Source: Candidatus Schekmanbacteria bacterium RIFCSPLOWO2_02_FULL_38_14 (lineage in GTDB: Bacteria > Schekmanbacteria > GWA2-38-11). From it: DNA of 12,071 nt. The stretch covers positions 30,080 to 42,150 of the forward strand of contig MGDH01000024.1 of the NCBI GenBank assembly GCA_001790855.1. Direction: 5' to 3'. Positions 1,110 to 10,158 of this stretch are shown here, piece by piece. Below the pieces are notes generated by a model. The model worked only from the letters and a program-made list of their open reading frames with translations, made no database searches and had not been told where the DNA came from. The position numbers and the translations under genes were made by a program. The stretch's first letter is position 1. Each line of letters opens with the position of its first letter.

Positions 1110-1180
1110 ATTAATATATTTTTTATTCTTGGCTTGTTTGGTTAGGTAGGGTTTGCATTTGATAGGTGAAGGATAGGAAA

Positions 1181-2800
1181 ATGTTCTGCACTCATTTCTT
1201 AAGGCTTCTGAGCTTTAAGCTCTTTGCTCTGTTAATGCTCCTTCTCATTATTCTTTTTTCCTTCTACATGTATATCAACCTAAAACTCCATACCTCCCAC
1301 CTCATGGCAAATGTTATTGCAAGCGCCAACAGAACCAGCGATTTGATAAAAAAATCTACAAGATACAGTATGTTGAAAAATCAAAAAGAGGATGTTGACC
1401 AGATAATTACAACCCTCGGTAATCTTCAGGGCGTTGACGGGATAAGGATATACAACAAGAAGGGGCTGATAATGTTCTCAGGCCGCAAAGAAGAAACAGG
1501 AGAAGCAGTGGATATGAAGGCTGAAGCGTGTTATGTGTGCCATAGCGAAAAGATTCCGAAAAAAACACTTCCTTCAATAAATCGTACAAGAATATTCTAT
1601 TCTCAAAAGGGTTACCGGGTTCTTGGATTAATTAACCCGATTGACAATGAGCCTGACTGTTCAAATGCATCGTGCCATGCGCATCCGGCATCAATTAAAG
1701 TCTTGGGGGTTCTTGATGTTAAGATGTCTCTTGCTCAGGTGGACAGGAATATAAGAGAAAGTGAAAACAAAATGATTTTCTTTGCTGTCCTTTTTATTCT
1801 TACAGTAGGTATTGTATCAGGTGTTTTTATCTGGTTTATGGTTCATAATCCTGTAAAGAAGCTTACTATTGGAACCCAGGAGATTTCAAAGGGGAATCTT
1901 GATTACCAGATTGATGTTAAATCAAAGGATGAAATAGGGCAACTTGCAAAGTCCTTCGCCTATATGATGCAGGAGCTTAAAAAAGCCTATGAAGAGATTA
2001 CTAACTGGTCAAAAACTCTTGAAAAAAGGGTTAAAGAAAAGAGTGAAGAACTTGAGAGAACGCAGGCTCATATTGTGCGGGTTGAGAAGATGGCTTCCCT
2101 TGGCAAACTCTCTGCCACTGTAGCCCATGAGATAAATAATCCTCTTGGCGGAATTTTAACCTATACAAAACTTTTGATTAAAAAACTGGAAAAACTCAAT
2201 ATTCAGGGGTATGATGAATCCATAATAAAATTTTTGAAAATAATTGAAAACGAATCCAAGCGCTGCGGGAGAATCGTCAAAGACCTCCTTGTTTTTGCCA
2301 AGTCCTCGTCAGTAAATTTTCAGCAGGAAAATTTAAAAAATGTTGTTGAAAAAAGCCTTCTTCTTGTTAATCATCACTTGGAAATTAAAAATGTAAAAGT
2401 TGAAAAAATCATGCCAGATGCTGATTTAACCATTGTCTGTGACACAAACCAGATTCAGCAGGCTTTGATTGCTTTATTTATTAATTCTGTTGAAGCCATG
2501 CCAAATGGAGGAACACTCAGAATTGAACTTATTCCAGAAACAGGAAAGAATTTAATCCAGATTAAAATTTCTGACACTGGTGTTGGAATCAAGGAAGATA
2601 TTATTCCGAATATTTTCGAGCCTTTCTTTACAACAAAAAAAGATGGCTCAGGTTTAGGACTGGGTCTTTCAGTAGGTTATGGTATAATCAAAAAGCATGA
2701 GGGAGATATTGCGGTTGACTCTAAAATTAATGAGGGAACAACCTTTACTATAATACTTCCGACAGATTTACCTAAGGGAGAACAAAAGGTTGTTGAATAA
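1181..2800 (+). CDS. Membrane sensor histidine kinase with a periplasmic di-heme c-type domain
   Basis: 539 residues from the ATG at 1181, chosen over an in-frame GTG at 1166 because GAAGGA (1168-1173) sits 7 bp before the ATG. Helix 1 spans about residues 10-32. The periplasmic sensor (about 35-195) carries CYVCH (C117, C120, H121) and CSNASCH (C160, C165, H166), which are CXXCH and CX4CH heme c attachment motifs. Helix 2 (about 198-221) leads to HAMP (about 222-275), a coiled coil, and the H-box LSATVAHEINNPL with phospho-acceptor H316. The ATPase domain has N box (N435), G1 (DTGVGI, D465), F box (FEPFFTTK) and G2 (GSGLGLGLS). The kinase probably senses redox state or a heme ligand such as O2 or NO and phosphorylates the regulator encoded next. 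The architecture is certain; the ligand is inferred. Confidence 0.93.
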   Translation: MFCTHFLRLLSFKLFALLMLLLIILFSFYMYINLKLHTSHLMANVIASANRTSDLIKKSTRYSMLKNQKEDVDQIITTLGNLQGVDGIRIYNKKGLIMFSGRKEETGEAVDMKAEACYVCHSEKIPKKTLPSINRTRIFYSQKGYRVLGLINPIDNEPDCSNASCHAHPASIKVLGVLDVKMSLAQVDRNIRESENKMIFFAVLFILTVGIVSGVFIWFMVHNPVKKLTIGTQEISKGNLDYQIDVKSKDEIGQLAKSFAYMMQELKKAYEEITNWSKTLEKRVKEKSEELERTQAHIVRVEKMASLGKLSATVAHEINNPLGGILTYTKLLIKKLEKLNIQGYDESIIKFLKIIENESKRCGRIVKDLLVFAKSSSVNFQQENLKNVVEKSLLLVNHHLEIKNVKVEKIMPDADLTIVCDTNQIQQALIALFINSVEAMPNGGTLRIELIPETGKNLIQIKISDTGVGIKEDIIPNIFEPFFTTKKDGSGLGLGLSVGYGIIKKHEGDIAVDSKINEGTTFTIILPTDLPKGEQKVVE

Positions 2801-2961: not shown

Positions 2962-2983
2962 TTATAAGAAAGAGGTAAACGTG

Positions 2984-4333
2984 ATGAAAAAAAATATTGG
3001 AATTTTAATTGTTGATGATGAGCTCTCTGTGAGAGATTCGCTGTACAACTGGTTTAAAGAGGATGGCTACAGGGTTGATACAGCAGAGAATGGTATTGAG
3101 GCATTAAAAAAACTGCAGGAAAAAGAATGGGACATAATCCTTCTTGATATCAAAATGCCCGGCATGGACGGCATTGAGCTTCAGGGGAGAATAAATGAAA
3201 TAGACAAGAGCATTACAATTATTATTATGACCGCCTATGCCTCTGTTGAAACAGCCATCCAGTCTCTCAAGGCAGGAGCCTTTGACTATGTAACAAAACC
3301 GATTGACCCGGATGATCTCAGTCACCTTATCAAAAATGCAATAAAGCAGAGAGAACTCATAGTAGAAAATATCCAGCTTCGAAACAAAATCGAAGAGCTC
3401 TCGCATCTGGATGAAATAATTGGTGACAGTTCCCAGATGAAAAAGGTATTTGAGCTTGTTGAAATGGTAGCAAAAACTGATGCTACTGTAATGATCCGCG
3501 GCGAAAGCGGAACCGGAAAGGAACTGATTGCCAGAGCAATCCACAGCAACAGCTCAAGGCGCTATTTTCCCATTATCCCGATAAATTGCGCATCATTCCC
3601 TGAAACCCTGCTTGAAAGCGAGCTTTTCGGTCATGAAAAAGGGGCATTCACCGGAGCGCAGTACAGGAGAAAAGGGAAACTTGAGCTTGCCCACGGAGGG
3701 ACTATTTTCCTTGATGAAATCGGGAACATCAGTATGAAAACCCAGGTAGACCTTCTAAGGGTTATTGAGGCAAAACAGTTCACAAGGCTTGGAGGAAACG
3801 AGATAATAAACGTTGATTTCAGAATAGTTACTGCTACAAACAAAGACCTTGAACAGGCAATAAAAGATGGTTCTTTCCGTGAAGACCTCTATTACAGGCT
3901 TAATGTCTTCTCCATCTTACTTCCGCCATTGAGGGAAAGGCTGTCTGACATTCCGCTTCTTGTTCAGCACTTTATCAAAAAATTCTCTGCCTCAATGAAT
4001 AAAAATATCGAAGGGATTTCTCAGGAAGCAGTTGATATGCTTTTAAGGTATAACTGGCCGGGCAATGTGCGGGAGCTTGAAAATGCCATAGAGAGAGCAA
4101 TAGTTCTCAGCAAAGGTCCGCTGATAAACTCCGCACACCTGCCGTTTCAGCTATCAAAGGATGGAAATAGCGCAGGAAGCGATTCCCTGGAAGATATTGA
4201 AAAAGTTCATATCTTCAAAGTTCTTAACAAGGCTGAATGGAACATAACCCATGCCGCAGAGATATTAAAAATCGATAGGGTTACTCTCTATAACAAAATA
4301 AAAAAATATGATTTGAGCAGAGATAACTCTTAG
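2984..4333 (+). CDS. Sigma-54-dependent response regulator (NtrC/AtoC family)
   Basis: 449 residues from ATG 2984, preceded by AGAGGT at a 7-bp gap; a GTG at 2981 is the alternative. The receiver domain (1-120) has the acidic pocket in VDDE, phospho-acceptor D55 in LLDIKMPGMDG, T83 and K105 (VTKP). The AAA+ domain has Walker A GESGTGKE (about 173-180), the sigma-54 contact loop GAFTGA (220-225), Walker B TIFLDEIG (about 240-247) and the WPGNVREL motif. A Fis-type helix-turn-helix (about 404-444, ending HAAEILKIDRVTLYNKIKKY) binds DNA. All residues needed for phosphorylation, ATP hydrolysis and sigma-54 activation are present. It is the evident partner of the heme kinase upstream. The only strong -24/-12 promoter I found in the window is at 8954-8969, so that operon is the likely target. 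Confidence 0.95.
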   Translation: MKKNIGILIVDDELSVRDSLYNWFKEDGYRVDTAENGIEALKKLQEKEWDIILLDIKMPGMDGIELQGRINEIDKSITIIIMTAYASVETAIQSLKAGAFDYVTKPIDPDDLSHLIKNAIKQRELIVENIQLRNKIEELSHLDEIIGDSSQMKKVFELVEMVAKTDATVMIRGESGTGKELIARAIHSNSSRRYFPIIPINCASFPETLLESELFGHEKGAFTGAQYRRKGKLELAHGGTIFLDEIGNISMKTQVDLLRVIEAKQFTRLGGNEIINVDFRIVTATNKDLEQAIKDGSFREDLYYRLNVFSILLPPLRERLSDIPLLVQHFIKKFSASMNKNIEGISQEAVDMLLRYNWPGNVRELENAIERAIVLSKGPLINSAHLPFQLSKDGNSAGSDSLEDIEKVHIFKVLNKAEWNITHAAEILKIDRVTLYNKIKKYDLSRDNS

Positions 4334-4349: not shown

Positions 4350-4889
4350 ATGCCCTTTATCCATATAGTTCCATTTCAGCTTCTTTTATCTATAGATTTC
4401 GAACCGCTTAAAGAAATTATTTTAAAAACCTTTAATATCCAGCCCACAATATCAAACCAGAAAATAGATATTTCTGATACCTATGACATTAAAAGAAACC
4501 AGTATCATTCTTCAAAAATCTTAATTAAACTCAATGAGGCAAAATCTGAAGGCGCTGTAAAAATTCTTGGCATAACTGAGCTTGACCTCTTTATCCCAAT
4601 TCTCACATTTGTATTCGGAGAAGCACAACTCAACGGGACTGCTTCTGTCATTTCTCTTTTCAGGCTTAAGAATCAGTTTTATGGTTTGCCTGAAGATAAT
4701 AAATTACTCTCTGAAAGAATGGGAAAAGAAGCAATCCACGAGCTGGGACATAACTTTGGGCTTTTTCACTGCGACAATTACAGGTGTGTGATGAAATCCT
4801 CAACCTACGTTGAAGATGTTGATATAAAATCGATTGACCTCTGCCATTTATGCAAGGAGCTTCTTCTGAAGTCTTTAAAAAACTTATAA
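4350..4889 (+). CDS. amzA: Archaemetzincin-like zinc metalloprotease (peptidase family M54)
   Basis: 179 residues, the usual size for the family. The catalytic motif HELGHNFGLFHC places zinc ligands at H130, H134 and H140 with the general base E131. The family's second, structural zinc site is complete: C141, C146, C165 and C168 (CHLC). M148 (CVM) is the Met-turn residue. There is no signal peptide, so the protein should be cytoplasmic. It starts 16 bp after the regulator's stop and very likely shares its transcript; the ribosome-binding site is weak (AGGA too far upstream), so translation may depend on coupling. Physiological substrates of bacterial archaemetzincins are not established. The family call is very secure; a link to the two-component system rests only on position. 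Confidence 0.92.
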   Translation: MPFIHIVPFQLLLSIDFEPLKEIILKTFNIQPTISNQKIDISDTYDIKRNQYHSSKILIKLNEAKSEGAVKILGITELDLFIPILTFVFGEAQLNGTASVISLFRLKNQFYGLPEDNKLLSERMGKEAIHELGHNFGLFHCDNYRCVMKSSTYVEDVDIKSIDLCHLCKELLLKSLKNL

Positions 4890-4995: not shown

Positions 4996-5874
4996 TTAAC
5001 AATGCAGCTTTGTGAATGTGGTTAAAAATATATCAAAGAATCTTTTATGACCAATAACTTCCATTAACCCTTCTGTAGTTTTTTCTCTCTCCAATATAGA
5101 CCTTCCATGTATCCTTATCTGCTTTAGAAGTTCCCTGATAACAAGCTGTTCTAATATAAAAGAATGTTTTTTAAATCTAATAATAGCATCTTCGCTTGAA
5201 AATAGGGATTCTGCCTCTTTCTCAAAATCCAGTGGCTTAAGCCTTAAAAGCCAGCCCCTGCCATAGGGGTCAGCAATCGGTAGTTCCGGATTCTCAAAAA
5301 CCTCCTGATTCAAGGAGATGATATATCCGCTTAGCGGAGAGACAACTGGAACTGTCCCGAATTCTCCGGCTATCCAGCAGCACGGGTGTTCTTGGAGAAT
5401 CAGGGTTGATTCAGGTGGAAGGATGATATGTTTTATTTTTGTTATAAATTTACAAAGAAAATCATCAATCCCTATTTTCACATGTCCATTATTTTGTTTA
5501 ACCCATGTATGGCCCTCATAATAAAGAAAATCTTTCTCAATTTTAAAATCAAAAAGACCCTTTAAAAATCTTTCTGCTAGAGTTTTTTCTATCCCGAATT
5601 CATCCAAGTTATTAACAGGAGAGCGTAGCTTTACAGTCTTAATTCTATCCTCATGATTCTTGATTGCATCTCCTATGGTCTGAAAGTTCCTCTCTCCTAA
5701 AAAAGATTCATTAAATGAGCAGAAATCGCAATTATATTCCTGGTCGCAGAGTTTATATGCTACAAGCCCTGCAGTCATCCAGACACATTTTAATTCACCC
5801 TCTGGAATGAGTCTGCTTGTGGAATGATTTTTTGTTTCCTCTTTTTCGTAATTTGTATTTTTCATAACTTCCAT
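4996..5874 (-). CDS. GcvH-like protein with N-terminal cysteine motif, no lipoyl lysine
   Basis: 292 residues, more than twice the size of glycine-cleavage H protein (about 130). An N-terminal segment has four cysteines spaced C30-X12-C43-X5-C49-X2-C52 in the context WMTAGLVAYKLCD, suitable for a metal or Fe-S site. Residues about 115-210 match the H-protein fold (GHTWVKQNNGHVKIGIDDF, then SPLSGYI, then the NPELPIADPYGRGWLLRLKP region). The position of the lipoyl lysine, six before the residue preceding SP, is F172, and no lysine occurs between 151 and 211, so lipoylation is excluded at the usual site. A helical C-terminal extension resembles that of the GcvH-like protein at 8091-8825. It is the last gene of the HybAB-like block, 134 bp after it. 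ATG 5874 is used; ATG 5865 has a better upstream purine run. Confidence 0.8.
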   Translation of the reverse strand: MEVMKNTNYEKEETKNHSTSRLIPEGELKCVWMTAGLVAYKLCDQEYNCDFCSFNESFLGERNFQTIGDAIKNHEDRIKTVKLRSPVNNLDEFGIEKTLAERFLKGLFDFKIEKDFLYYEGHTWVKQNNGHVKIGIDDFLCKFITKIKHIILPPESTLILQEHPCCWIAGEFGTVPVVSPLSGYIISLNQEVFENPELPIADPYGRGWLLRLKPLDFEKEAESLFSSEDAIIRFKKHSFILEQLVIRELLKQIRIHGRSILEREKTTEGLMEVIGHKRFFDIFLTTFTKLHC

Positions 5875-6008: not shown

Positions 6009-7238
6009 TCACACCTTTCTATCTGAATCAATCCTATCATAGGAAGATTCTATTGCTAAAGCTGCTTCTCCGGGTAAAGCCTCATAGCTATATTCCCTCT
6101 CCTTCTCAACTGCCTCCTTCTCTTTTGCTGCTTCAAAGATTGGCAGATATTTTACTGCCACACCAAAGACAATAAAACCTATGCCAACAATAAAGGCTGT
6201 TACAGCCATTTCCATCCATGTCGGGAAATACTCAACTCCTGAAGATGCTGCCATACCAGTAATACTGACATTTAACCTGTTCATAACAAAGCCAATTACA
6301 ACCATTAAGGCAGATATGAAAAGACCTTTTTTATTGACCCTTACCTGCGGAATTGTGAGCAGGATAAAGGGTATAACAACACCAACTAAAATCTCTGCTA
6401 TAAAGAGAGGTCCTTCAATTCCTGAATTAAATACCAGACCAATTGCGTCTCTGTGGAAAAGGTCCAGCATTCTAAGCGCAAAATAAGCCCCTAATATAAC
6501 CACAATCACCCTGCTAAGCCCTTCCAAAAGGTCAATTTCAAGCTCTTTTTTGAAAAATCGGTAGCTTAAGAATGACTCAAAGATAACCATTGCCAGTCCT
6601 GCCCCGATTGCAGAGACAAAGAAAAAGAGCGGCAGAAGCGGAGAATACCAGAGCCCGTTCAATTTCTCAGGAACAATAAGAAACAAAGTCCCGAGAGATG
6701 ACTGGTGCAGAGTTGAAAGGAGGAACCCTGCAAGAACCAGAGGTATTGAAATTGACTTCAGTATTTTCAGCGGCTTCTCCATGTTGAATTTCTCTAAAAT
6801 AACCGGGATAAATTCCAGCGCAAGAACAGCAGAATAGAGCATAACGCACCAGGCGACCTCAAACATTACCGAGTGCGGATTCCACATGACAATCGGATGC
6901 CAGATTCTGTATGGCCTTCCCAAGTCATAAAGCAGGGCTGTTGATACAAGGATGTACCCCAAAAATGCAGTGAGTATGGTTGACCTTATTATAGGTTTAT
7001 ATTTTTTGATATTAAAAATATAAACTGCTGCTGTGATGGTAAATCCTCCTGCTGCAAGCCCTACACCGCAAAGGACATCAAATCCTATCCAAAGACCCCA
7101 TGGAAAGCTATCGCTTAAGGCGGTTGATGCCCCAAGACCTTTTATGAACCTATAACCTGTTGCATAGACCCCAAGAACCATAATGACAGCCAAAACAACT
7201 CTCCAGAAAGTTATTTTAGGCAATTCTATCTTCCTCAT
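6009..7238 (-). CDS. hybB-like: HybB/NrfD-type integral membrane subunit (quinone-interacting)
   Basis: 409 residues from ATG 7238, which follows AGGAGGT by 8 bp; an in-frame TTG at 7247 is rejected. About ten membrane helices are visible (roughly 12-29, 49-75, 85-105, 122-145, 163-185, 204-226, 243-262, 277-297, 305-326, 347-370). Sequence blocks such as FPWGLWIGFDVLCGVGLAAGG, LLYDLGRPYRIWHP and MWNPHSVMFEVAWC are characteristic of HybB, the membrane subunit of group 1 hydrogenase-2, rather than short NrfD. The family moves electrons between an Fe-S subunit and the quinone pool without heme. The gene lies 22 bp after the HybA-like gene, its expected partner. A charged cytoplasmic-looking tail of about 40 residues follows the last helix. 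The enzyme that feeds or drains this subunit is not in the window. Confidence 0.92.
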   Translation of the reverse strand: MRKIELPKITFWRVVLAVIMVLGVYATGYRFIKGLGASTALSDSFPWGLWIGFDVLCGVGLAAGGFTITAAVYIFNIKKYKPIIRSTILTAFLGYILVSTALLYDLGRPYRIWHPIVMWNPHSVMFEVAWCVMLYSAVLALEFIPVILEKFNMEKPLKILKSISIPLVLAGFLLSTLHQSSLGTLFLIVPEKLNGLWYSPLLPLFFFVSAIGAGLAMVIFESFLSYRFFKKELEIDLLEGLSRVIVVILGAYFALRMLDLFHRDAIGLVFNSGIEGPLFIAEILVGVVIPFILLTIPQVRVNKKGLFISALMVVIGFVMNRLNVSITGMAASSGVEYFPTWMEMAVTAFIVGIGFIVFGVAVKYLPIFEAAKEKEAVEKEREYSYEALPGEAALAIESSYDRIDSDRKV

Positions 7239-7260
7239 TGTAACCAACCTCCTTCCTCTG

Positions 7261-8025
7261 TTAATTCCCTTTATTCTTTTCCTTCAGCCTCTTTTCCCTC
7301 TCCAAAGCCTCTTGAACTCTCACCTCGTTCCTCCTGTTTGTTATCCACCATATTCCACCCATAACAACCCCGCCCATAATCACTATATCCGGAATCATTG
7401 ATAACACATTCCATGTTAACATTGGCATAGGATGCTTTGCCAAATCTGTCCTGAAACCCAGACTGCTGAAGGGAGCACTTGCAAGAAAGATAACTGAAGT
7501 TCCTCCTACTTCCTCTTCTCCATATATATGGTTCACATATTTTTTGGGCTCTCCTCTGATTCTTGATTTAGCTTCGTTAAGAAGATAATCTCTTTCACCA
7601 AACTCTGTTGCACCTGTAGGGCATGCATCAGTACACGCTGTCTGCTCGCCACGTGCAACTTTTTCTGCGCAGAAAATGCATTTTCTTATTCTCGGCAAAG
7701 GGTTTTCCCACTCATATTTTGGTATGCTGAAGGGACACGCCACCATGCAGTATCTGCATCCAATGCACTTCTCCTCATCATATACAACAGGTCCTGCCTC
7801 TGTTTTATGCAAGGCTCCAACAGGGCATACTGACGCACAGGAGGGATTGCTGCAGTGCATACAGAGCTTTCTCACAAATATACCATTAACCTCCTTAATT
7901 GTTGTATATGTCTTTGAGGAAAGCCTGTATTCATCTCCCTGAGGAAGTTTATTTATCTTCTTACAGGCTTCAACACACGCCATACATCCTATACACAGAG
8001 TTGTATCTACCAACATTGCCTTCAT
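7261..8025 (-). CDS. hybA-like: HybA-like ferredoxin subunit with four [4Fe-4S] motifs and a C-terminal membrane anchor
   Basis: 254 residues from ATG 8025, with AGGAGG 8 bp upstream; a GTG at 8034 overlaps that site and is rejected. Four cysteine groups follow the HybA order: CIGCMACVEAC, CMHCSNPSCASVC, CIGCRYCMVAC, and CIFC with CTDAC. A hydrophobic segment near residues 208-230 (VLSMIPDIVIMGGVVMGGIWW) should anchor the C-terminus, followed by a highly charged tail. Unlike E. coli HybA, which has an N-terminal Tat signal, this protein begins directly at the first cluster (MKAMLVDTTLCIGC), so there is no visible export signal and a cytoplasm-facing subunit is likely. It passes electrons between an unknown partner and the HybB-like subunit encoded next. 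Confidence 0.93.
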   Translation of the reverse strand: MKAMLVDTTLCIGCMACVEACKKINKLPQGDEYRLSSKTYTTIKEVNGIFVRKLCMHCSNPSCASVCPVGALHKTEAGPVVYDEEKCIGCRYCMVACPFSIPKYEWENPLPRIRKCIFCAEKVARGEQTACTDACPTGATEFGERDYLLNEAKSRIRGEPKKYVNHIYGEEEVGGTSVIFLASAPFSSLGFRTDLAKHPMPMLTWNVLSMIPDIVIMGGVVMGGIWWITNRRNEVRVQEALEREKRLKEKNKGN

Positions 8026-8090: not shown

Positions 8091-8825
8091 CTATCTTCCT
8101 CTCTTTCTTAAAAAGTTCTTCTCGAAAAATTCCCACTGCTCATCGCCAAGAAATTCAAGAAGTCCGTCAACAATCTCACCACCGTCCTGAATGGTCGCAT
8201 ATCCGGGAACCATCTGTAAGCCTTTCCCAAGCATGACCTCCTTAAACCTTACGATTTCTTCCTTGAGCCACAGAGCAGCGTCTTTAGCTACTTTAAGGGC
8301 TTTGATATTCTCGCTTAAATTATTTGGCTTAATTGCGCATACCCAGCCATCAATATAAGGATCCCTTTTTATAACCCTTGGTGTTTCAAGTAACATATGA
8401 TTTACACTGCCGATGACACCATCTACCGGAGAGTAAAAATTTGCCTTTCTATTTCCCTGCTTAATTGTAAATATCCTTCCCCCCTGTTTAACCTCTTTCC
8501 CGATAGGAGGAAGTTCAATTTCATCAAATCTTCCAATGCTTCTCTGGGCAAAATCGTCCATCCCAACCTTTACATATCCTGACAAAAGGAGATTTGCCCA
8601 TGTGTGCCCTTTGTGGAAAAAGATTCCCATTGGAATGCGGTAATCAGACTCTCTAAAGCTCCTGACAGGTTTTCGCTCTGCTTTCCTTGCCTCTCCGGCT
8701 GCTTGAGTTTCTGTTCTGGAACGAAAAACAGCAACCCTTCCCTCTCTCCTTGCCTCAACTGTCTGCACAGCCAAGTCAATCAGTATAAAACAGATAATGG
8801 TTGTTACTACGAGTATTACTACCAT
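8091..8825 (-). CDS. Membrane-anchored GcvH-like protein lacking the canonical lipoyl lysine
   Basis: 244 residues from ATG 8825, which follows AAAGGAGGGG; the longer frame back to 8942 is read through a palindromic repeat and starts at the predicted transcription start, so it is rejected. A single N-terminal helix (about 2-21) is followed by EARREGR, which predicts the bulk of the protein in the cytoplasm. After a charged linker, residues about 68-168 match the glycine-cleavage H fold (HKGHTWANLLLSGYVKVGMDDF, YSPVDGVIGSVN, DPYIDGWVCAIKP). The usual lipoyl position, six residues before Y131, is N125; the nearest lysines are K122 and K127. A C-terminal extension ends in LLEFLGDEQWEFFEKNF, similar to that of the protein at 4996-5874. 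It is the first gene after the sigma-54 promoter and heads the HybAB-like operon. Confidence 0.85.
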   Translation of the reverse strand: MVVILVVTTIICFILIDLAVQTVEARREGRVAVFRSRTETQAAGEARKAERKPVRSFRESDYRIPMGIFFHKGHTWANLLLSGYVKVGMDDFAQRSIGRFDEIELPPIGKEVKQGGRIFTIKQGNRKANFYSPVDGVIGSVNHMLLETPRVIKRDPYIDGWVCAIKPNNLSENIKALKVAKDAALWLKEEIVRFKEVMLGKGLQMVPGYATIQDGGEIVDGLLEFLGDEQWEFFEKNFLRKRGR

Positions 8826-8880
8826 TTTAATCCCCTCCTTTCTTTTTGCGTTAAAGTTTTCAACTGAACCCTCCTTTTCA

Positions 8881-8934
8881 GGCAGGTCAGGAGACCTGCC
8901 TCTATCCGGGTAGAGTTGGGTCTCCTGACCCAAC
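8881..8934. repeat. Double hairpin repeat in the operon leader
   Basis: Two 8-bp stems with complementary loops lie back to back: GGCAGGTC-AGGA-GACCTGCC (8881-8900) and GTTGGGTC-TCCT-GACCCAAC (8915-8934). A third dyad, CTCTA/TAGAG, joins them, so the whole is also a larger near-palindrome. It falls within the first 65 nt of the transcript predicted from the sigma-54 promoter. A related GGCAGG/CCTGCC word occurs at 9375-9391, which suggests an inserted repeat family rather than a purpose-built regulator. Confidence 0.65.
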
Positions 8935-8953
8935 CTTCCCAACTATCCTAAAC

Positions 8954-8969
8954 TGCAAATAGCGTGCCA
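8954..8969 (-). promoter_or_regulatory. Sigma-54 (-24/-12) promoter of the GcvH-like/HybAB-like operon
   Basis: On the minus strand the sequence reads TGGCACG-CTAT-TTGCA (8969 to 8954), matching the sigma-54 consensus at every conserved position with the exact GG-N10-GC spacing. The transcription start should lie near 8943, about 118 nt before the first ATG. A sigma-54 promoter needs an AAA+ activator, and one is encoded at 2984-4333. Confidence 0.88.
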
Positions 8970-9070
8970 GAACTAAAAAATATGAATGGATTTAAAGGTA
9001 TGAGATTAATTTGCTTGGATATTCAGGGGCTTAGAGAGAAAAATAAAATCAGGCTCAAAAAAGAAATTAG

Positions 9071-9098
9071 TTTTTCAACAATATGAATTGTTGAAAAA
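9071..9098. promoter_or_regulatory. Perfect 12-bp dyad, candidate activator binding site
   Basis: TTTTTCAACAAT (9071-9082) and ATTGTTGAAAAA (9087-9098) are perfect inverted copies around a 4-bp spacer. The centre is about 141 bp upstream of the predicted start at 8943, within the usual range for an NtrC-type enhancer. The arms share the TTCAACA/TGTTGAA word with the dyads at 9167-9205 but in the opposite orientation. The same word occurs in the ends of the repeat at 9989-10129, so a repeat remnant is the alternative. Confidence 0.45.
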
Positions 9099-9166
9099 AT
9101 TTACATGAAAATTTTCAAAAAATTAAAAACCAATGGAATCATCTTGTTTTTTAAAAAGATTTTCCC

Positions 9167-9205
9167 TGTTGAATTCCTCAACAGAAGCTGTTGTGATTCT
9201 CAACA
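9167..9205. promoter_or_regulatory. Two tandem 17-bp dyads 22 bp apart, candidate enhancer
   Basis: TGTTGAATTCCTCAACA (9167-9183) and TGTTGTGATTCTCAACA (9189-9205) share the pattern TGTTG-N7-CAACA. Their centres, 9175 and 9197, are 22 bp apart, two helical turns, so both dyads face the same side of the DNA. They lie about 232 and 254 bp upstream of the predicted sigma-54 start. Read leftward, the first dyad is followed by a broken T-rich run, so a weak terminator for the gene at 9469-9897 is the competing explanation. Confidence 0.5.
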
Positions 9206-9468
9206 AAACGCTGGCATAAATGAAGTCAGAGTAATACACTTATACGACGATATGGTATCAAAAGCAGAAATCCTTCTTTTTGCTATTTACCATTCAATAT
9301 TCTCGGTTAGCCTGTAAAGACCAGTTTCTACATTTTGCAGGGACAGGATTTATCACTGTCCATCCAAATTTCTGGGCAGGCGAGACCTGCCTACCGCAGG
9401 CAGGAGCCTGTCCTACTATTCACTGACCACTATTCACTAACTAACAATTAATCTGGGGTTAAGAACTT
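9206..9468. other. Intergenic stretch with degenerate repeats, no gene
   Basis: I see no coding frame with a ribosome-binding site here. The right part (9375-9438) is made of short repeats: GGCAGG-N5-CCTGCC (9375-9391), then CAGGAGCCTG (9401-9410), then a direct repeat ACTATTCACT at 9415-9424 and 9429-9438. These look like remnants of interspersed elements. No clear terminator for the gene ending at 9469 is visible. Confidence 0.55.
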
Positions 9469-9897
9469 TTAGTAGCTTTTCCTGCCCGAAAGTTTTTCTA
9501 CCTTTATTCTGAATGTCATGGATTTGTCAGGGGTTTTTGCAGATTTTTCAACCTGAGCCTCAAGAACCTCCTGGGGCACTTTATATTTTTCAGCAGCAAG
9601 TTTCATGCCAATTAATATTCCTTCGCGGTCTTTTACCTGCTCAATCCTCCCCTCTGCAAAAACAGAAGACCATCCATCATCAGTTGCTTTAAAGACAGTG
9701 AAGGCTGCATTGGGGTTTTTCTTCATGCACTCAAATTTCCTTCCCTGTGGAAGCAAGCCAAGCCATATATCCTTCCCGTTAAAGCAATACCAGCAGACAA
9801 CCCCGTAGGGTCTATCGCTATCCACAAGCATGAGAGTCCCTTCATATAGTTCGTTTAAAAGGGTTTCTATCTCCTTTTCTGTCATCTGTTTTGCCAT
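9469..9897 (-). CDS. Pyridoxamine 5'-phosphate oxidase family (FMN-binding split barrel) protein
   Basis: 142 residues, the typical size for single-domain members. The pattern LMLVDSDRPYGVVCWYCFNGKDIWLGLLPQGRKFECMKKNPNAAFTVF matches the first half of the split barrel, in which a strand pair is followed by the GRK motif and the NP-x-AAF strand; a second strand set (WSSVFAEGRIEQVKD) and a C-terminal RIKVEKLSGRK strand complete it. Such proteins bind FMN, F420 or heme as dimers, and the sequence does not settle which. There is no signal peptide, so it should be cytoplasmic. GGAG lies 9 bp before the ATG. It is followed by 640 bp without a gene before the HybAB-like block, so it is probably its own transcription unit. 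True PdxH function is unlikely because PdxH is longer. Confidence 0.85.
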   Translation of the reverse strand: MAKQMTEKEIETLLNELYEGTLMLVDSDRPYGVVCWYCFNGKDIWLGLLPQGRKFECMKKNPNAAFTVFKATDDGWSSVFAEGRIEQVKDREGILIGMKLAAEKYKVPQEVLEAQVEKSAKTPDKSMTFRIKVEKLSGRKSY

Positions 9898-9988
9898 CTC
9901 TTAATTCTCCGTATTAAATTTCAAATCACAAAATCCAAATCCCAAACAAATTCAAAACTGTTTAGAACATTTGAATTTTGTATTTTGG

Positions 9989-10129
9989 CAGACTGTTGAA
10001 AAGCTCGGTTTACTGTCATTGCGAGCAAAGCGAAGCAATCTCAGTTTTATGTAAATCAATTGGCTAGAGATTGCCACATCGCTGTCGCTCCTCGCAATGA
10101 CGCTCGTTATCCCCTTTTTCAACAGCCTC
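9989..10129. mobile_element. MITE-like 141-bp element with terminal inverted repeats and TTGG flanks
   Basis: The ends AGACTGTTGAAAA (9990-10002) and its inverse ending at 10128 (AGGCTGTTGAAAA) differ at one of 13 positions. The four bases TTGG stand directly on both sides (9985-9988 and 10130-10133), as a target-site duplication would. No coding sequence lies inside, so the element would need a transposase encoded elsewhere. The interior is the palindrome listed at 10015-10101. It is inserted in another repeat, between the flavodoxin and oxidase-like genes. Confidence 0.6.
10015..10101. repeat. CATTGCGAG palindrome, full-length copy
   Basis: The left arm GTCATTGCGAGCAAAGCGAAGC (begins 10015) and the right arm ending in CTCCTCGCAATGAC (ends 10101) form a long imperfect stem of about 28-35 bp around an AT-rich loop. 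It is the more intact relative of the element at 5894-5999. A hairpin of this kind could fold in transcripts of either strand, but there is no T-tract that would make it an intrinsic terminator. Confidence 0.75.
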
Positions 10130-10158
10130 TTGGAATTTGTTATTTGAGTTTTATTATT

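Follow-up and report, generated by a model that had tools for sequence, protein, structure and literature searches.

Which regulator controls the four-gene operon at this locus, and to what signal would it respond? The window, that is the whole stretch of 12,071 nucleotides analysed here, carries two convergent sets of genes. The plus strand encodes a sensor kinase (1166..2800), an NtrC-family response regulator (2981..4333) and an archaemetzincin-family (M54) zinc metalloprotease (4350..4889). The operon (8825-4996) on the minus strand encodes, in order, a GcvH-like protein (GcvH-like 1, 8091..8825), a HybA/HmcB-like 4Fe-4S ferredoxin (7261..8022), a HybB/HmcC-like NrfD-family membrane protein (6009..7247) and a second GcvH-like protein (GcvH-like 2, 4996..5874). 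The preliminary description proposed that the heme sensor controls this electron-transfer module, making the locus redox-responsive. Comparison between genomes supported the regulatory link, by way of the promoter, synteny and upstream dyads; the redox part stands as a hypothesis.

The promoter was re-read on the minus strand at 8954..8969 as TGGCACG-N4-TTGCA with the exact spacing claimed for it (8969-8954, TGGCACGctatTTGCA). The -24 element TGGCACG and the -12 element TTGCA match the sigma-54 consensus exactly, the GG of the -24 and the GC of the -12 being placed as in the TGGCACG-N4-TTGCW frame; promoters of this class stay silent until an activator acts on them. The distance to the ATG of the first operon gene (8823-8825), previously given as about 129 bp, was measured as 128 bp, and a ribosome site judged good (AAAGGAGGGG) lies just before this ATG. 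The start region of the gene is kept in L018, from Candidatus Schekmanbacteria GWA2_38_11, the closest named relative. The exact promoter pattern occurs twice in the 2.68-Mb genome and not at all in the reversed control, with ∼0.3 matches expected by arithmetic (12 fixed bases, even composition), and none of 300 Markov shuffles of the 643-bp upstream region equalled the promoter score. These genome counts and shuffles, together with the conservation described below, rule out a chance match. A relaxed sigma-54 pattern gave 67 sites genome-wide versus 5 in the control, so a real sigma-54 regulon is present; RpoN is encoded (PF04552 at C9:9831-10304). A scan of the minus strand from 8826 to 9468 yielded no sigma-70-like site, and no convincing sigma-54 site that would indicate autoregulation was seen before the kinase gene, either in the window or in G002. 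A second sigma-54-like match (TGGCATGaaacTTGCT, 9595-9610, minus strand) falls within the upstream PNPOx-like ORF.

The leader of the operon contains a hairpin (GGCAGGTCTCCTGACCTGCC, 8881-8900), and the G001 leader carries a sequence resembling it. We rejected this hairpin as a specific RNA switch because it is a dispersed repeat, present at 11 places in the genome, and an Rfam scan of the window gave no match. An inverted-repeat element like a small mobile repeat (ctgttgaaaaag ... cttttcaacag) lies between genes at 9985-10130.

The protein encoded beside the heme kinase is a complete sigma-54 activator, as had been stated, with a receiver domain, an AAA+ domain with GAFTGA and a Fis-type HTH, and its gene ends 4.6 kb from the promoter. 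It scored below the NCBIfam equivalog cut-offs for AtoC (484 of 714) and ZraR (433 of 760). PF00158 has 17 matches genome-wide, however, and about a dozen full-length activators are encoded besides that at 2981-4333, so that the promoter by itself cannot name its regulator. In most genomes, the best regulator match adjoins the operon. The regulators encoded beside operons group in a single clade (support 98/92) that excludes ten paralogs from the same genome as the window, and they share the HTH motif IDR[VTS]TLY.KI.KY or a close version of it, which the paralogs shown do not have.

To assess conservation, GcvH-like 1 was used as query against 98 genomes, and the regulator and the kinase as queries against 15 of these. 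The gene set is found together in G002, G023, G060 (twice), G040, G017, G027 and G004, and more loosely in G038, while in G009 and G001 it is divided among contigs. Adjacency could not be read in G001, G089, G034 and G009, whose regulator either maps to a different contig or could not be recovered. A search with the sensor domain (alignment A2) matched 36 of 386 genomes, and the close new matches (G312, G174, G308, G107 and G243) also carry the operon; G003, from the same order, has neither the operon nor an orthologue of the regulator. Multiheme cytochromes are frequent neighbours of these loci. At one locus (L166 9853-12857), kinase and regulator orthologues adjoin 17- to 19-heme cytochromes, and both the operon and the dyads are absent from the 20 kb read. 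The operon is found in many little-studied, distant bacteria. The joint occurrence of kinase-regulator pair, operon and promoter, which had been put forward as a check, came out in favour of the link, in genomes that are distant.

A recognisable sigma-54 site precedes the operon in most of the other genomes that have it. The sites are good in G001 (TGGCATGGTATTTGCA), G002, G023, G034, G089, G060 (two loci), G009, G017 and G308, and lower-scoring in G027, G038 and G040; those of G038, G312 and G174 are weak by matrix (p about 0.1 for the latter two), the matrix being a rough one modelled on the published consensus; the exact-pattern counts are independent of this matrix. G312 and G174 both have AGGCAAG-N4-TTGCC at an equal distance from the dyads. 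An apparent absence of the promoter in G027 and G017 was an artefact of start codons placed too far upstream, and a rescan gave TGGCAGACATGTTGCA and TGGCATGGCATTTGCT, respectively.

Regulator binding had been suggested for 9071-9205, and it is there that the conserved dyads were found. Dyad 2 (9167..9183; TGTTGAGGAATTCAACA, minus-strand reading) is a perfect TGTTGA-N5-TCAACA and is identical in G001 at an equal distance from the promoter. Dyad 1 (9189..9205; TGTTGAGAATCACAACA) has one mismatch to this motif and lies 22 bp from dyad 2. A third element (9071..9105) combines a dyad with two mismatches (TGTAAATTTTTTCAACA, 9089-9105) and an overlapping 12-bp inverted repeat (TTTTTCAACAAT/ATTGTTGAAAAA, 9071-9098), and stands at -136 relative to the promoter in the window, G001 and G002. 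The motif was defined from the window and G001 only, with 12 other upstream regions held out. In these, 18 dyads with no more than two mismatches were seen against an expectation of 0.36, a count that 500 shuffle sets never reached; five control dyads gave 0. Two other exact copies of the motif in the genome were not taken as further regulator targets since both are within coding sequence (SecA-like and Nuo-like ORFs by reading), and by eye none of the remaining genomic dyads with at most one mismatch was close (a few hundred bp or less) to any listed sigma-54 site.

Relative to the promoter, the dyads are at -236/-214/-136 in the window and G001, -237/-215/-136 in G002, -248/-227/-148 in G060 and -236/-214 in G038. 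In a uniform test, a pair spaced 19-23 bp, about two helical turns, was present at 13 of 16 loci including the window (chance ≤0.002 each) and at none of six control regions; only single dyads were found in G060c, G009 and G038. This geometry bears on whether the dyads are activator sites at all, as they might instead have arisen by chance or terminate transcription of the gene before them; the 9164-9186 dyad does score as a terminator-like hairpin too. The dyads, however, keep their distance to the sigma-54 site in genomes where the upstream genes differ, sit about two helical turns apart and are missing at control loci; moreover, terminator-like matches in the region are no more frequent than chance. 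We therefore regard the terminator or chance-repeat reading as very improbable, and treat the dyads as putative activator sites.

A natural control is provided by four genomes (G107, G243, G346 and G055) in which a like heme kinase and GcvH/HybAB genes are accompanied by a short response regulator that has no sigma-54 domain. All four encode rpoN, yet in the upstream regions tested no dyad came within two mismatches of the motif, and no convincing sigma-54 site stood where one might be expected. Because the sites are absent from these four genomes, a small set, the dyads and promoter appear to track the type of regulator, not the operon alone. No M54 gene was seen in the four non-sigma-54-type loci.

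This distribution also weighs on the identity of the activator. The promoter could be functional and yet be driven by one of the dozen or so other complete activators, leaving the neighbouring pair with a different target, and such a pair is not always found beside the operon: G217 has an orthologue of the regulator, with the same HTH, but no dyads and no operon were seen in the 20 kb read there. The dyads and promoter nevertheless follow the clade of the neighbouring regulator and vanish where a non-sigma-54 protein replaces it, and a different activator thus seems unlikely. The conserved promoter, the synteny, the dyad geometry and the tracking with regulator type together make a good case for the regulatory link, and the neighbouring kinase-regulator pair is very likely linked to the operon. 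The best overall explanation, which we hold with high confidence on these comparative grounds, is that the adjacent regulator activates the sigma-54 promoter of the operon via the dyads. The heme-bearing kinase would phosphorylate the response regulator, which would then bind the TGTTGA-N5-TCAACA dyads ∼215-235 bp upstream, with a further predicted regulator site ∼136 bp upstream, and would remodel sigma-54 RNA polymerase by DNA looping, so that the operon (8825-4996) would be transcribed from the promoter at 8969-8954.

The nature of the signal is less constrained. The kinase has a periplasmic domain with CxxCH and CxxxxCH motifs, followed by HAMP, HisKA and HATPase domains, and the two heme motifs are invariant among the nine rows of alignment A2. 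The closest solved domain is that of GSU0935 (structure 3b42), matched by the sensor profile with E = 1e-4, and PF21563 is matched weakly by all nine members (22.8 bits for the window protein versus a cut-off of 27). Geobacter c-heme sensor domains are known from GSU0935 and GSU0582 and from the two-heme GSU0599 (PMC8396549, PMC3831638). A 2026 preprint (PMC12889525) reports a c-heme Cache domain, part of a signalling protein, that binds NO and forms no stable oxy-complex, and a stand-alone one with redox-like behaviour. The candidate signals are NO, some other heme ligand and the redox state, and 'redox-responsive' is hypothesis only. That the regulatory link is correct but the kinase responds to NO or a different heme ligand, and not to redox state, is a serious possibility that we rate below even: the signalling-fused domain sets a precedent and the nearest solved relative of the sensor is a c-heme domain, but the precedent is one protein of another subfamily and the window sensor has two heme motifs, as does GSU0599 of G. 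sulfurreducens (type CX2-4CH; PMC8396549). In addition, the target operon and the frequently neighbouring multiheme cytochromes are electron-transfer proteins.

What the operon would supply is partly visible in its proteins, for which the names 'GcvH' and 'HybAB' had been used. These names hold as statements of similarity and not beyond it: the lipoyl-lysine is absent, the scores of the other two proteins come nearer to HmcB and HmcC, and no equivalog cut-off is passed. GcvH-like 1 has an N-terminal membrane helix and an H-protein domain (PF01597, 77.9 bits), and its family profile aligns to the H protein 1onl. GcvH-like 2 scores 68.7 bits with PF01597 and has no apparent membrane helix. Alignment of the H-protein-like domains with a genuine H protein is free of gaps around the lipoyl site, where the residue is Asn in GcvH-like 1 and Phe in GcvH-like 2; in relatives it is N, S, G, D, E, T or others, with no Lys where it can be read. 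A Cys-rich motif near the N terminus of GcvH-like 2 (CVWMTAGLVAYKLCDQEYNCDFC, 5719-5787), also present in L018, is possibly a metal or cluster site.

The ferredoxin (254 bits with the HmcB model, cut-off 420) has a C-terminal hydrophobic stretch, and the NrfD-family protein scores 97.3 bits with PF03916 and 340 bits with the HmcC model (cut-off 550); neither member of the pair reaches a curated cut-off for HmcB/HmcC or HybA/HybB. The ferredoxins of the window, G002, G023, G027, G312, G174, G308, G107 and G243 are without a TAT signal, and those of G001, G089, G060, G055, G040, G038 and G346 have one, so the side of the membrane on which the ferredoxin lies may vary between subtypes. The G001 ferredoxin (L071 2403-3308) has the signal and that of the window does not, despite closely related first genes and promoters. 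The downstream operon genes look to have been swapped between subtypes.

The M54 protease scores 84.7 bits with PF07998 and 166 bits with NF033823 (cut-off 145), and has the full motif HExxHxxGxxHC-x4-C-x-M-x17-CxxC (HELGHNFGLFHC...CHLC) with its active-site portion intact. In most sigma-54-type loci its gene is placed next to, or between, the kinase and regulator genes; the zinc motif is intact in 12 of 13 relatives. The protease as a near-constant partner of the kinase and regulator, and GcvH-like proteins without the lipoyl-lysine, are new points. We searched the literature on GcvH with HybA/NrfD, archaemetzincin with kinases, BccR/CbcBA and GSU0598, and found no description of such a module. 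It is conceivable, and a reading we put only slightly short of even, that two-heme kinase, sigma-54 regulator and archaemetzincin form an undescribed three-part module, dedicated to a membrane electron-transfer complex that uses lipoyl-lysine-free H-protein folds as structural or binding subunits. If so, the protease would act in signalling or in maturation of the complex. A concrete candidate regulator, motif and target are now proposed for an electron-transfer operon with no description in the literature searched. The dyad motif can be used for regulon finding in the genomes of cultured relatives, and the conserved protease and lipoyl-free H-protein domains are unexplained parts directly amenable to bench work.

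Each part of the locus resembles a known system and departs from it. The operon proteins share the H-protein domain with GcvH (Pfam and PDB profile), but they lack the lipoyl-lysine and have an extra C-terminal region, copy 1 has a membrane helix, and neither copy is with GcvP or GcvT, a true GcvH being encoded elsewhere in the genome (C36). HmcB/HmcC of Hmc and HybA/HybB of hydrogenase-2 are likewise pairs of a ferredoxin and an NrfD-family membrane protein, but here there is no adjoining hydrogenase or HmcA, the ferredoxin is without TAT, and GcvH-like proteins flank the pair. The sensor is like the GSU0935/GSU0582-type c-heme domains of Geobacter, by the GSU0935 profile match and weakly by PF21563; unlike them, it is joined to a kinase whose partner is an NtrC-type regulator, and is linked to this operon. 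A comparable case in Geobacter is BccR, a regulator encoded next to CbcBA. With the NtrC, AtoC and ZraR systems, the locus has in common the receiver, the AAA+ domain with GAFTGA and the Fis HTH, a -24/-12 promoter and paired dyads at looping distance, whereas the c-heme sensor, the M54 protease in the regulatory operon and a dyad of its own set it apart.
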